DNA of 64,000 nucleotides from contig NZ_LR134336.1 of assembly GCF_900637025.1 (NCBI RefSeq), forward strand, positions 388,001-452,000. Direction: 5' to 3'. The notes under the pieces were generated by a model, which was given only the letters and a program-made list of their open reading frames with translations, had not been told where the DNA came from and searched no databases. Positions 32,204-37,138 of this stretch are shown here, in pieces. The position numbers and the translations under genes are program-made. Position 1 is the stretch's first letter. Each line of letters begins with the position of its first letter. The DNA is from Streptococcus oralis ATCC 35037 (lineage in GTDB: Bacteria > Bacillota > Bacilli > Lactobacillales > Streptococcaceae).

Positions 32204-32965
32204 ATGACAAAAACATTCACTATCCATCCGCTAAGCTATACCAACTTTACCAACCGCGAGTTTGAAAGTCTCATGGTAGACACGGGTCAACTACTAGAAG
32301 TTTTTGCCAAGGCACATAAGGACGAGCCTATGTATAGTAAGCACCTTGATTCCTTCAAGAGCAAACTAGCAGACTTCCAAGGCCAACTCGCTATTGTAGA
32401 AAAGAAAGAGGCGACGAACCTGACCGAAGTCGATCGCAATCGTGACAGTGCCCTAGTCGGTCTCTTTACTCTTCATCGAGGATTTGCTAAGATCAAGGAG
32501 ACCAAACTCAAAGAAGCCCATGAGACTTTGAAACCAGTCTTTGCCAAGTACAAGGATATCACCAAGCATAGCAATGATGTGGAAACGGCAGAAATCAAGA
32601 GTTTACTCAAAACGCTGAGCGAAGAACCCTACCATACGGCAGTGACCAGCCTAGGACTGACACCCATGCTGACTGCGGTGATTAGTGCGCAGGAGGAGTA
32701 TGATAAGGTGGAAAGTCAGGCGCGTGCGCATAAGTCTGCAAAGGAAGTCGGAAAGACCAGACAAGTCCGCACCGAACTAACCAGTATCTACGACCTCTTT
32801 ATGCGCTATACTGCAGCCAGCGCAGAAGCCTATCCTGAAAAAGAGCACCTGACCAAACTCCTTAAAGACCTCAATAGCATCCGAGATAGCAAGCGGCGAT
32901 TGACTGGTTCCAATAAGAAGGATAAGAAAGTTAAAGTAGAAGAAACTACACAAGTAGCAGGATAA
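32204..32965 (+). CDS. DUF6261-type helical protein
   Basis: A 253-residue protein, soluble and mostly alpha-helical by composition, with many Lys, Glu and Thr. It begins TKTFTIHPLSYTNFTNREFESL, which fits the DUF6261 family as I remember it, and ends in a Lys-rich tail. No catalytic motif, signal peptide or membrane segment is visible, and no function is known. GAAAGG precedes the ATG by 9 bases. It is flanked by terminators on both sides, so it is monocistronic. TGTTAGAAT at 32134-32142 could be its promoter. Confidence 0.75.
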   Translation: MTKTFTIHPLSYTNFTNREFESLMVDTGQLLEVFAKAHKDEPMYSKHLDSFKSKLADFQGQLAIVEKKEATNLTEVDRNRDSALVGLFTLHRGFAKIKETKLKEAHETLKPVFAKYKDITKHSNDVETAEIKSLLKTLSEEPYHTAVTSLGLTPMLTAVISAQEEYDKVESQARAHKSAKEVGKTRQVRTELTSIYDLFMRYTAASAEAYPEKEHLTKLLKDLNSIRDSKRRLTGSNKKDKKVKVEETTQVAG

Positions 32966-32969
32966 AAAC

Positions 32970-33010
32970 AAACGTCTTTAGATATATTATTATCTAAAGA
33001 CGTTTTTTTT
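32970..33010 (+). terminator. Strong terminator after the DUF6261-type gene (left edge of island)
   Basis: AACGTCTTTAGATA-tattat-TATCTAAAGACGTT, a 14-bp perfect stem with a T8 tract. Confidence 0.92.
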
Positions 33011-33020
33011 GGTAGATTCG

Positions 33021-33029
33021 TGGTATAAT
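33021..33029 (+). promoter_or_regulatory. Extended -10 promoter of the accessory island
   Basis: TGGTATAAT, 82 bases before the first island gene. Confidence 0.6.
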
Positions 33030-33110
33030 TTGAGTGAGTAATTCTCTAGAATTGTAATTGGGTATAACTTATATTTTAATTTATAAATTATTGTAATGAA
33101 GGAAGAGTTT

Positions 33111-34157
33111 ATGGTAGATTGTAATAACGAAGAAGAAAATAAAAAGGAATCTGAGAAAGTCTCTAAAGAAATGAACTCAAAGATTTCAAGTTTAGAAGAA
33201 GTTAGAGTTAACTTTCAAAAAATCAATTTAGATATTTCTGAGAAGATGAGGCCGATTTCTGAGGCATGTTTAAAAATATTATCGCAAATAGAGATGCCAA
33301 AAATAGATTTTAGTCCATTGCTTTCATTGAGTGATAAGATAACTGAGTCGTATTCCTATACATTTAAATCCTTAATAGATACTTTTTCTTCAATTGATTT
33401 CGAAAAATATGAAAAAGACTTAGAGGAGCTTGATAAAAGAAAAATAGCACAATTCTTGCACTATGATATTTATCCTCCGTTATTATTCATTGATGAAATG
33501 GGATCATATGAAATAGAAAACCAAAAAGAAGCTAATATTGTACTGATGAAATATCTATCATTATGGGAGGAAAAATATGGTAGAACAGTTTATGATTTTG
33601 TTCCTAAATCTCTAAAAACATATAAAGAGATTTGTCAACTACAAAATCTTGAACAGCTAAAAATGTATAAAACAATGGTCATGTTTTGCTGTGAAAGAAT
33701 TGAAAATGTACTAGCTAAACTCCAAATACAAGAACAAGAGAAAAAGCAATCTGAAATTAAAGTTTCTCAAAAATCGTTTAAAAATTTTATGGATTCTTTG
33801 AATCATGATGAATACCTGAAAGAGTTAATTTCTCATATTGCTTATATTTCTGAATATCATGATAAAGGTTTTAGGGAGATAAATCTTTTCAAGAGATTTG
33901 AGAGCTTAGACGAAGAATATGATGAAGGAACGCTCCCATTGAATAGAAATTTGTTTATGCATGGTTTAGTTGATGAAAAGAATGTGAATTATTTAATGGT
34001 TCAAAAAGCTATTCTAGCTTATTCTTTCTTTGTACAACTATATGTGTTAAAAACTAGAAATAGTAAAGACGCTAGAATAAAAGGTCTGAGAAGAAAAGGG
34101 ATTTCTAGAATACCAAAAATGAAAAGGAGCTTTAATGCTGACGAATCAAGAAATTGA
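33111..34157 (+). CDS. Unknown helical protein with C-terminal R-x4-H (HEPN-like) motif
   Basis: A 348-residue protein that I do not recognise. Residues 1-75 are very charged and look coiled-coil; the middle is helical and AT-rich in codon use. Near residue 285 the segment LPLNRNLFMHG contains Arg-Asn-x3-His, the R-x4-H spacing of HEPN-domain RNases, set between hydrophobic helices (VNYLMVQKAILAYSFFVQLYV). The C-terminus is basic. ATG 33111 is chosen over ATG 33096 because AAGGAAGAG lies just before it. Its 3' end overlaps the next gene by 23 bases. A defence or toxin role is a guess from motif and neighbour. Confidence 0.6.
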   Translation: MVDCNNEEENKKESEKVSKEMNSKISSLEEVRVNFQKINLDISEKMRPISEACLKILSQIEMPKIDFSPLLSLSDKITESYSYTFKSLIDTFSSIDFEKYEKDLEELDKRKIAQFLHYDIYPPLLFIDEMGSYEIENQKEANIVLMKYLSLWEEKYGRTVYDFVPKSLKTYKEICQLQNLEQLKMYKTMVMFCCERIENVLAKLQIQEQEKKQSEIKVSQKSFKNFMDSLNHDEYLKELISHIAYISEYHDKGFREINLFKRFESLDEEYDEGTLPLNRNLFMHGLVDEKNVNYLMVQKAILAYSFFVQLYVLKTRNSKDARIKGLRRKGISRIPKMKRSFNADESRN

Positions 34158-35349
34158 AGATATTGTAAGAGAGTTTTTTTATCAAGAAGCAGAAGGGGAA
34201 TATTGGGATTTTAAAGAAAAGCCATATTTCTATGAAGGTCAAAGTGAAAAGGATAAGAACAAGAAAAAGGGAGACCTTCTCCATGATATTATTTGTATGG
34301 CAAATAATTTAAGTAACCGGGACGCATACATTGTCATGGGAATTCAAGATAAACCAGTTAAGATAACAGGAGTTAAGCAATTCTCTAATAAGTGGACACA
34401 AGAAAGTTATCAGGATTTTTTACACAATTTATCTTGGGCTGGAGATTGTGTACCATCAGTTGAGCTAAGAAGTATTAACGATGGTAATATAGAAGTTCTT
34501 GTAATTAGAAAGTCTAGTAAAGTTCCTTTTTATTTGACAAAAAAGTATAATAAAGTGAAAGAAAATCAAATATACGTAAGGAGAGGTGCAAAAAATACTG
34601 CAATTGATAATCAGGCAGAAATAGGCGATATTGAAAAATTATTCGAATTTAGATTTGGATTAACTCCTTTCCCTAAGGAACGTGTTATTAACTATATAAC
34701 TGACCACGATCATTGGACTGAGATGAAGGGGAATTATGAAACTCGATCTTGGTATTATGAGAAATTTCCTGAATATACAATGGAATTAGTTGATGATCCA
34801 CAGAACGATGAACTCCGGGCTCCAGTTTATGCACTCATCCATCCTAACGTAAGAACCACATGGGAGATTTTACGGATAAAGTATCACCAAACAATTTTAT
34901 TCGAGTTTAGTTCTCACTACATTGATGAATATAGAGGATTGTCTGTTCAACCACGATATAATTTTTTAAAATTATTTGAAGGAGTAAACAATATAAATTT
35001 AAAAACTAATTTTTACTATTATTTAGCAGACTCCGTTGAAATTAATTTGATGTATTTGTTAGAGGAATTACTTGAGCAAGATGGCGAAGCACTAAGACAA
35101 CATTTAAGTTTAATCCCAGTTTTTAAAAACGATGATGAAAGAGAAGCTATTAAAAAATATGTTGAAGACAATAAAGCTGATATTCTAGTTGAAATAAAAA
35201 AAGAAAGTGAGAAGGTTTGTTTAGGTTACAACTATGAAGGAGATGAGCAGAATAGCAAATGGGACAAAGAAGAAATAGCAGTAACCAAAGTTGTTAAAAA
35301 TATTTTAGATGAGTATAGGAAAAATAAATTATATGAAAAAACAAAGTAA
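34135..35349 (+). CDS. AlbA_2 (Schlafen-type, 'divergent AAA') domain protein
   Basis: A 404-residue protein. The N-terminal domain (about 10-160) fits AlbA_2: EGEYWDFKEK (conserved Glu-x-Phe-Lys), LLHDIICMANNLSNRDAYIVMGIQD (helix, Asn, then strand) and YVRRGAKNTAI. The rest (160-404) has no recognised domain. AlbA_2 proteins act on nucleic acids and are frequent passengers of type I restriction-modification loci and other defence loci. AAAGGAG 6 bases before the ATG lies inside the upstream gene, so the two are coupled. It is followed by a broken hsdS start, which fits that context. Confidence 0.8.
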   Translation: MLTNQEIEDIVREFFYQEAEGEYWDFKEKPYFYEGQSEKDKNKKKGDLLHDIICMANNLSNRDAYIVMGIQDKPVKITGVKQFSNKWTQESYQDFLHNLSWAGDCVPSVELRSINDGNIEVLVIRKSSKVPFYLTKKYNKVKENQIYVRRGAKNTAIDNQAEIGDIEKLFEFRFGLTPFPKERVINYITDHDHWTEMKGNYETRSWYYEKFPEYTMELVDDPQNDELRAPVYALIHPNVRTTWEILRIKYHQTILFEFSSHYIDEYRGLSVQPRYNFLKLFEGVNNINLKTNFYYYLADSVEINLMYLLEELLEQDGEALRQHLSLIPVFKNDDEREAIKKYVEDNKADILVEIKKESEKVCLGYNYEGDEQNSKWDKEEIAVTKVVKNILDEYRKNKLYEKTK

Positions 35350-35467
35350 TACTCCACAAATTAGGTTTCAAAATTATGAAGATGGATGGAATGTAGAAAA
35401 AATAAAAAATATTTTCGGAACTATAAGAAATGCTGAACCAATTCCACGGAACCATACAAGAAGCTGA
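35333..35467 (+). pseudogene. Remnant of a type I restriction specificity subunit (hsdS)
   Basis: A frame of 44 codons starting at ATG 35333, overlapping the end of the AlbA_2 gene by 17 bases. It reads MKKQSNTPQIRF, then NYEDGWNVEKIKNIFG: the standard opening of streptococcal HsdS proteins (KxPxIRFxGFxxxWExxKL). It stops at TGA 35465-35467, where an intact gene would have about 400 residues. A second short frame (35430-35510, ending ADAELKKFLKEKTRI) looks like the tail of another lost gene, so this is a deletion junction. Confidence 0.7.
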
Positions 35468-35526
35468 TGCTGAACTTAAAAAGTTTTTGAAGGAGAAAAC
35501 AAGGATATAGCAAAGGAAGTGTGCTT

Positions 35527-36303
35527 ATGAAGTCAAATGAAAATGAAGAAAATCAAACAAGTGTAGAAATAACATTGGCCTCACATCATGAATTTAGTAG
35601 TGATTCAGATAAATCGGCTTGGGATTTTTATTTGAAATATTATGGGGAAAGTTTATATAAAGAGGGAAAAATATTTCTTTTCTCAAATAAAGTGGAATCA
35701 ATCGAAGTTAACGGAGATGTATCTTTTAATATAGATTCTACAGTCTTTAATAAAGGTACTAAACTTTATGAGTCAATTTTAAAGGAGACCAATATTTCGG
35801 AAGGGTTAAAGGATTCTCTTGGCGTTATTCGTTATTCGCCTTTGAACATCAGTATAATGCCTAAAACTGGTGGTTTAAATATCATAAAAAAGTCTTTAGG
35901 GAACGATAGATTTGATACTTTTGCTTACTTTATTAATCAATATTATGAAGGCTTTAAAACTCCCATCATTAATGCTGGTTCTTTAACAATGGGAATTGGG
36001 AATAGATTGATTTTAGAAAAATTTTTGGATAGCTATAAAACTGCTGGAGAGTTCTTTGAAGATATCTATGGTATTGATGAAACATTTGTTAACGAATTGA
36101 TAGAATCAGGTAAGTCTCTAATTACGAATAAGGAAGAGTACTGTGCTTATATTAAATTAGCTCATAAGTACTGGTGTTATAGACTTAACCATGAGAAAAT
36201 GACAAATTTACTTGATAATCAAAAAATTATACAATACAAAGATCATTTGAATACCATTTTAAAAGAGATTGAAATACTAGAAAATAGTATTAATAAGAAA
36301 TAA
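35527..36303 (+). CDS. Unknown island protein, faint resemblance to DUF6994
   Basis: A 258-residue soluble protein that I do not firmly recognise. It is AT-rich like its island neighbours. The segment RFDTFAYFINQYYEG and, about 35 residues on, SYKTAGEFFEDIYGID resemble the RFDLTLECIRRYY...YADFFxLF pattern of DUF6994 proteins, as does the early SAWDFYLKYYGESLYKEGKIF. No catalytic motif is known for that family. ATG 35527 follows AAGGA by 9 bases and is preferred over GTG 35521. It has no clear terminator behind it. Confidence 0.6.
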   Translation: MKSNENEENQTSVEITLASHHEFSSDSDKSAWDFYLKYYGESLYKEGKIFLFSNKVESIEVNGDVSFNIDSTVFNKGTKLYESILKETNISEGLKDSLGVIRYSPLNISIMPKTGGLNIIKKSLGNDRFDTFAYFINQYYEGFKTPIINAGSLTMGIGNRLILEKFLDSYKTAGEFFEDIYGIDETFVNELIESGKSLITNKEEYCAYIKLAHKYWCYRLNHEKMTNLLDNQKIIQYKDHLNTILKEIEILENSINKK

Positions 36304-36384: not shown

Positions 36385-36789
36385 ATGGAACAAACTAATC
36401 AAAAATCCCAGTGCCAGCAACTCTGGGCTAGGAACAAATATCTTGTTTTGAGTCATTCTAGCAATATTTACAATGAGATTCGCCAATACTTGAAGAATGA
36501 ACAGGTGGAGCTGAGTCAGGTTCAAGAGATGATTGACCGTGCCTGCCAGATTCCAGAACATAGAGGTCAGGTTTGCAATGCCTTTCAGCATATTTGGGGC
36601 TATTTCAAAAAGAAAGCGACAGATGCCGAGCGCAAGGACTACATGCTCTTGCTGGATCGCTACCGCTTTGGTCAGGTTTCTAAGGAAGACTTGATCGTTA
36701 AAACTCGAGACTTGCTTGAACTCTATCCCAATACCTACTTGCAACACTCGACCTTACTGAAAGGAGACTCCTATGAGACTTTGGCATGA
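36385..36789 (+). CDS. DUF1722 (YbgA-type) protein
   Basis: A 134-residue stand-alone DUF1722 domain. Characteristic segments are LWARNKYLVLSHSSNIYNEI near the N-terminus and DRYRFGQVSKEDLI near the C-terminus. In other bacteria this domain is fused to DUF523 or stands beside DNA-repair genes such as photolyases; the function is unknown. TAAGGAG precedes the ATG. It overlaps the following glycosylase gene by 17 bases, so the two are probably made together. Confidence 0.82.
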   Translation: MEQTNQKSQCQQLWARNKYLVLSHSSNIYNEIRQYLKNEQVELSQVQEMIDRACQIPEHRGQVCNAFQHIWGYFKKKATDAERKDYMLLLDRYRFGQVSKEDLIVKTRDLLELYPNTYLQHSTLLKGDSYETLA

Positions 36790-37138
36790 GGCTTTGATTT
36801 CACAACTTCCCCGTCCTCAACTTTTGGGGCAACATCGAGAGTGCTGCGCCCTGCGTGGCAATGGCTGGGGCAGAAAGCATGCGACGGTGGACTATGTCTT
36901 TACCCACTCGCCCTATCGTCTCTATGCCTATCATCGCTTGATCATGGAGGAGATGGCTAACCGTGGCTATAATGTCAGTCCAGAGTGGCTGGACAAGAAC
37001 TACCGTGGCAAGACCTGTCCTCCTTATCAAGACTTGCCTGAGGAGAACCTAGGTAATCCCGTCTATAGTGAGCATGACGCTGGATATTATGAGGAGTGTC
37101 TGGCTAATCTCCGTGAGAAGGGGATAGAGCTAGACTAA
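36773..37138 (+). CDS. Pyrimidine-dimer DNA glycosylase-like protein (T4 endonuclease V family, TIGR02328)
   Basis: A 121-residue protein of the Pyr_excise/TIGR02328 type. It opens MRLWHEALISQLPRPQLLGQ and then has Arg22-Glu23, the same numbers as the catalytic Arg22-Glu23 of T4 endonuclease V. GNGWGRKHATVDYVF and SPYRLYAYH are family features. Residue 2 is Arg where the T4 enzyme has the catalytic Thr2. AAAGGAGACTCCT precedes its ATG inside the DUF1722 gene. UV-dimer glycosylase/AP-lyase activity is inferred from the family. Confidence 0.75.
   Translation: MRLWHEALISQLPRPQLLGQHRECCALRGNGWGRKHATVDYVFTHSPYRLYAYHRLIMEEMANRGYNVSPEWLDKNYRGKTCPPYQDLPEENLGNPVYSEHDAGYYEECLANLREKGIELD

Follow-up and report, generated by a model that had tools for sequence, protein, structure and literature searches.

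Genes for HEPN ribonucleases (RNases) within restriction-modification (RM) loci, fusions to HNH nucleases included, are a described theme, and excerpts of the survey by Anantharaman et al. (2013; PMC3710099) name PrrC, RloC and 16 clades. According to the same excerpts, PrrC and RloC join an ABC ATPase to the HEPN domain, and PrrC is silenced by its type I enzyme (also in the excerpt of PMC12707154). PARIS and PrrC are described as RM guardians (excerpt of PMC12707154), and PMC12839542, likewise as excerpted, cites a preprint that deals with Schlafen proteins of bacteria and their part in phage defence. The window analysed here, a stretch of 64,000 nucleotides of the Streptococcus oralis ATCC 35037 genome, contained at 33011-36303 a locus of two overlapping genes, A (33111-34157, 348 residues) and B (34135-35349, 404 residues), followed by a type I RM scar and a third gene, C (35527-36303, 258 residues), all on the forward (+) strand. 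The locus is fairly probably what is left of a type I RM island, of which A and B were interchangeable cargo and, as self-contained abortive-infection RNases, outlived the RM system.

The 5' end of hsdS was retained at 35333-35434 (+), aligned with the hsdS start of relatives, with its ATG at 35333 and a 17-base overlap with B that was also present in the intact locus of S. mitis SK579 (G278). It was fused to the 3' end of hsdM: positions 35427-35495 (+) aligned with the hsdM end, and about 35415-35495 encoded residues 504-530 of the 533-residue HsdM of SK579. Eight bases at the hsdS/hsdM junction were common to the hsdS copy of a second relative (G122) and the hsdM copy of SK579, so that the junction is most simply explained by a deletion between short repeats. 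The original prediction had described a broken hsdS; the hsdS start overlapping the end of B was found as described, but it was joined by deletion to the hsdM end and not simply truncated. A simple frameshifted hsdS was rejected, the hsdM end being fused onto the hsdS start.

The order A-B-scar-C was repeated in another S. oralis (G201) and in Streptococcus oralis subsp. tigurinus AZ_3a, the closest named relative met (90-95% identity over the region). With the same neighbour genes, SK579 carried A-B followed by hsdS, a 621-residue AriAB-like gene (E = 3.3e-108 with PADLOC AriAB), hsdM and a 270-residue gene; hsdR was not found there between the DUF6261 gene and A, and the contig stops shortly beyond the locus. 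The genome of the window, a single contig of 1,931,548 bases, is without hsdS, hsdR or a recognisable type I hsdM. Methylase_S and HSDR_N gave no match in a search restricted to type I genes (other restriction types were not sought) and made in the genome of the window only, and the two N6_Mtase matches of that genome (37 and 19-21 bits) had no tblastn match to the HsdM of this locus in relatives. The AriAB search of the window gave nothing better than E = 0.09.

Five streptococcal type I loci were compared (G153, G240, G122, G265 and G278); the HsdR of G153 and the AriAB of G278 were scanned with PADLOC, and hsdM and hsdS were named by sequence and position. The gene order was hsdR, HNH/A fusion, hsdS, AriAB-like gene, hsdM and a gene guessed to be integrase-like in G153; hsdR, HNH/A fusion, hsdS and an AriAB-like gene, inside which the contig stops, in S. 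australis KO69 (G240); hsdR, SIR2, HerA, B, hsdS, two small genes and hsdM in G122; hsdR, a 272-residue gene, B without its start, hsdS, AriAB-like gene, two small genes and hsdM in G265; and A, B, hsdS, AriAB-like gene and hsdM in SK579. HsdR and HsdM were 99% and 100% identical, respectively, between G122 and G153, while everything between them differed and hsdS was about 40% identical over part of its length; A, B, SIR2-HerA and AriAB are therefore exchangeable cargo. In G153 (L053, 7624-9306) and G240 (L052, 5150-6811) the A-type domain was fused behind a GmrSD_C (HNH) nuclease domain, with an 8-base overlap into hsdS, and many such fusion proteins, several named S. thermophilus, occurred among the matches listed. 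The AriAB-like gene between hsdS and hsdM of G278, G265 and G153 (L046, 6207-8072; L050, 10741-12456; L053, 10505-12373) is the likeness to PARIS (AriA/AriB); the window differed in that AriAB was absent, and PARIS models matched neither A nor B.

Such type I islands carry exchangeable defence cargo in two slots, one before hsdS and one between hsdS and hsdM. In the window, the deletion at the 8-base repeat took out most of hsdS and almost the whole of hsdM, and with them probably a PARIS-like AriAB gene from the position in between; A and B remained. Two further observations were made on these islands. A SIR2-HerA pair stood beside the B-type gene within the type I RM locus of G122 (L048, 8535-12730), and two adjoining small genes, of about 117-157 and 98-109 residues and toxin-antitoxin-like in size only, travelled with the island (L047, 12208-12859; L050, 12721-13477; L053, 3801-4458).

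Gene A was predicted to be all-helical and carried R279-N280-x3-H284 (RNLFMH, residues 279-284; codons at 33945-33962, + strand), the R-x4-H motif that had been pointed out originally. By the HEPN definition used (excerpt of PMC3710099), the motif is R-x4-6-H with a polar residue (N, D or H) following R; both the conserved R-x4-6-H and the polar residue were found in A. Among 5000 shuffles of A, R[NDH]x3H occurred in 2.5% and bare R-x4-6-H in 48%; given this frequency the motif alone proves little, and its conservation in relatives is what counts. In the alignment of relatives R279 was present in 37/37, N280 in 36/37 and H284 in 35/37 (one gap in an incomplete piece and one N in G117), and the motif was found in 113 of 120 A homologues among the matches listed, the other seven being incomplete pieces. 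An alternative in-frame ATG for A lies at 33096; by eye, AAGGAAG ahead of 33111 favours the later start.

Comparison with known families gave sub-threshold likeness. DUF7602 matched A with a best E of 3.2e-5 (E ≤ 1 for 22 of 37 members) and DUF4209, the C6orf70 HEPN family, with E = 0.088, both below the curated cut-offs and over only about 25-59 residues covering the RNxxxHG region. The hhalign probability of A with four DUF4209 proteins was 3% (score 25.1; best of 200 shuffled controls, 25.0), and similarity to Csm6 was weak. Sequence searches of the PDB with A and with B returned chance matches only, HEPN proteins were absent from the Foldseek matches of A, a negative without weight, and DUF7602 members, sought in 121 genomes, were found in none, which is hence uninformative. 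Gene A resembled the RM-linked HEPN genes in its probable R-N-x3-H, in its type I position in relatives and in the fusion of the same domain to the GmrSD_C HNH (S. thermophilus, S. australis KO69); it differed in being kept without an RM system, in having no Pfam HEPN match above cut-off, and in a conserved segment of its own, L116..DIYxP, that precedes the HEPN part. A is probably a HEPN RNase: of the HEPN-like protein proposed originally, the motif stood, and the fold is likely but unproven. A reading of A as an HNH nuclease was rejected, as the A of the window has no HNH half.

Gene B matched the AlbA_2 profile over residues 20-157 (43 bits; curated cut-off 25.3), in agreement with the domain assigned to it before, and gave a full-length match to the PADLOC candidate model PDC-S50 (E = 3.1e-112; residues 5-397 against model positions 3-384 of 387). 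B is no new family, and no literature mention of the name PDC-S50 was found in titles and the starts of abstracts. The N-terminal domain fell within the SLFN/SAMD9 RNase-domain fold, RNase domains being included among its named matches. Ex4[DE][FY]K was present in 120 of 120 B homologues among the matches listed, and the third acid candidate was D63 (19/19 without a gap) or D72 (16/19); these acidic residues presumably pair with the active-site residues of SLFN13/SAMD9. Because the N-terminal domain resembles the SAMD9/Schlafen RNase domain, B may cut RNA instead of merely sensing. The proposal that the AlbA_2 protein senses while the HEPN protein cuts found no support, the B domain being most like RNase domains among the named matches; AlbA_2 as a pure sensor was rejected on the same matches. 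In three streptococcal type I loci B occupied a slot with an exchangeable effector on one side and hsdS on the other, and this slot recurred as a scar in the window, G201 and AZ_3a.

A would most likely act as a HEPN RNase and B as an AlbA_2 RNase similar to those of SAMD9 and Schlafen. In infected cells, both would probably stop translation through RNA cleavage, likely of tRNA, with arrest of the cell.

Both genes were under purifying selection. The ratio of nonsynonymous to synonymous substitution rates (dN/dS) between scar loci was 0.28-0.30 for A and 0.14 for B, the frames were full-length in three scar loci, and the active-site candidates of A and B were unchanged. With the RM enzyme gone and A and B intact at low dN/dS, the two genes are unlikely to need that enzyme for their control. 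Two points weaken this conclusion: G201 and AZ_3a are nearly identical, which reduces the dN/dS values to what amounts to a single comparison, and intact A and B alleles may be brought back by recombination with strains that still carry RM. Because both genes have stayed intact although the genome has no type I system, A and B would probably be triggered by their own sensing of infection, as with RloC and PARIS, and not merely be silenced by RM, as with PrrC.

The 23-base overlap of A and B noted originally was identical in all four A-B loci compared (the window, G201, AZ_3a and SK579; G201 and AZ_3a nearly identical), and both this overlap and the shared unit favour joint expression. An obligate two-component system, in which B recognises phage nucleic acid or a nucleotide and switches on the HEPN RNase A, is unlikely. 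The overlap agrees with such a system, as do longest-contig sizes: 10 of the 59 stand-alone A clusters (P0001-P0059, shorter pieces excluded) matched the size of a B cluster (among the best 120 of 665). Just 1 of 42 HNH/A clusters and 1 of 92 C clusters did so, and this contrast suggests further A-B loci in metagenomes. However, among 247 Streptococcus genomes (that of the window included) B (PDC-S50) occurred in 24, A in 9 and both in only 3, always side by side. HNH/A fusions stood directly ahead of hsdS with no B there, and B without A adjoined SIR2-HerA, the 272-residue protein, type III or Gabija genes, or was carried on plasmids. Alleles were also shuffled independently, identity between the window and G201 being 94% for A and 78% for B, and identity to SK579 81-83% for A and 90% for B. 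A and B are no obligate pair. The anti-phage or abortive-infection module of the original prediction stood in its link to defence (type I scar, PDC-S50 match, and restriction, Gabija, SIR2-HerA and kinase neighbours) but not as a single two-gene system. A toxin-antitoxin pair was rejected, each gene being found without the other. In titles and the starts of abstracts, no description of the A-B pair or of the hsdS slot pattern was found.

Surroundings were examined in all 9 A genomes and in 20 of the 24 B genomes (not in G043, G121, G134 and G249, which had weak partial matches). B was found by a type I locus or scar in 5, Gabija in 7, type III restriction in 1, a methylase-like fragment in 2 and nothing recognised in 5, where the scan covered one neighbour each in G009 and G036. 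A was found by a type I locus in 3, a scar in 2, and a type IIG restriction enzyme, a protein kinase with PDC-S51, and a phage-type integrase in 1 each; the neighbours in the ninth genome (G148) lay outside the scan. Broken B copies occurred in G265, G050, G135 and G005. The PDC-S50 genes by Gabija were tail to tail with it in 7 Streptococcus genomes (L041, L043, L044, L045, L058, L059 and L060), with gajA in 7/7, an open gajB in 4/7 and the broken B of G005 among them. In S. suis 10581 (G159; L054, 5213-8707) a serine/threonine kinase gene (Stk2-like) and PDC-S51 (DUF3800) came after an A-type gene, and the three may form a defence unit.

Class-wide outside the genus, B was found in 36 of 299 genomes at E ≤ 0.001 (that of the window included), 5 of the matches covering nearly the whole model, and A in 1 of 299, the window's own. 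One of these B genes, in G073, directly followed a type IIG enzyme. A pattern search of 84,980 species genomes for close A relatives gave 4 loci, all Streptococcus. A genome of another family of the order (G062) had a weak A match of 38 residues (E = 3.5e-4), and its 120-residue frame (L002, 1261-1620) contained CRNLFLHGMV and then an A-like end, so that the A domain extends beyond Streptococcus. B matches occurred in 23 plasmid records; among seven viewed, six showed no RM-named gene over a distance of about 7 kb (many genes there are hypothetical), and the seventh (Leuconostoc) had an S subunit and methylases near the B relative. Phage records gave no match to A or B, and viral contigs no relative of A.

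Control of the PrrC type, with the type I enzyme keeping A (or B) silent and phage inhibition of the enzyme releasing the toxin, is quite unlikely. The A and B of relatives do lie inside type I loci directly ahead of hsdS, with 17- or 8-base overlaps, and PrrC is a precedent (excerpt of PMC3710099). Yet a position within a type I locus was found in relatives only and not in the genome of the window, where A and B were intact although hsdS, hsdR and any relative of this hsdM were missing, and where an RM-silenced toxin should harm. The six plasmid stretches with no RM-named gene also argue against it, and no ABC ATPase domain was found in A or B, unlike in PrrC and RloC. A reading of A and B as non-functional debris, left to decay after the death of the RM island, is very unlikely, for although the surrounding RM genes were deleted, C is of no recognised family and B was broken in the four genomes named above, the frames in three scar loci were full-length at the low dN/dS given and the active-site candidates unchanged.

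As originally described, the locus is AT-rich, and no other part of the window is as rich in A and T as 33011-36303: the 1-kb blocks across 33001-36000 had G+C of 0.278, 0.320 and 0.296, the three lowest among 64, and the remaining 61 blocks 0.357-0.483. It was flanked by the DUF6261 gene (32204-32965) on the left and a DUF1722 and Pyr_excise gene pair (36385-37138) on the right. A terminator-like hairpin (32970-33005, +; 15-pair stem and T tail) stands between A and the upstream DUF6261 gene, which it ends, and forms the left border of the island. The promoter ascribed to the gene pair was not recovered, as the scan gave 16 promoter-like sites where 17.3 were expected, with no + strand site ahead of A; a possible extended -10 element, TGnTATAAT (33021-33029, +), was read by eye, is absent among the scan hits and is unproven. 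Rfam and tRNA scans of the window gave no match.

Gene C (ATG at 35527, +; 260 residues if GTG at 35521) follows the hsdS piece and, as had been stated, is of no recognised family, the family search giving no match. Homologues were found in 93 clusters and in 3 of 237 genomes, a count that takes in the genome of the window and a weak match of 54 residues, and dN/dS against G201 and AZ_3a was 0.40-0.42, above that of A and B. A 162-residue protein (P0331) consisted of the start of a PDDEXK_4 (PDC-S26) protein and the C-terminal third of C, which hints at another deletion at the site of C in other strains.

More broadly, and only tentatively, streptococcal type I islands may swap RNA-cutting effectors, the operon stacking the HEPN protein A (of a new clade), the SAMD9/Schlafen-like B and a PARIS tRNase around hsdS, each self-triggered, with HsdR and HsdM near constant; A-B would survive loss of RM as a free-standing abortive-infection unit, and A would serve by itself or make up the C-terminal half of an HNH nuclease. 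If true, an unannotated HEPN clade would be added to the RM-linked RNases, and within one genus guard-type effectors would be shuffled around a type I enzyme and be able to outlive it. In B, the antiviral RNase domain of SAMD9/Schlafen would have a bacterial relative in a compact and testable setting, and the loci without RM would be a natural experiment on whether RM-embedded RNases need the RM enzyme for their control, as in the PrrC model, or do not, as in that of PARIS and RloC.

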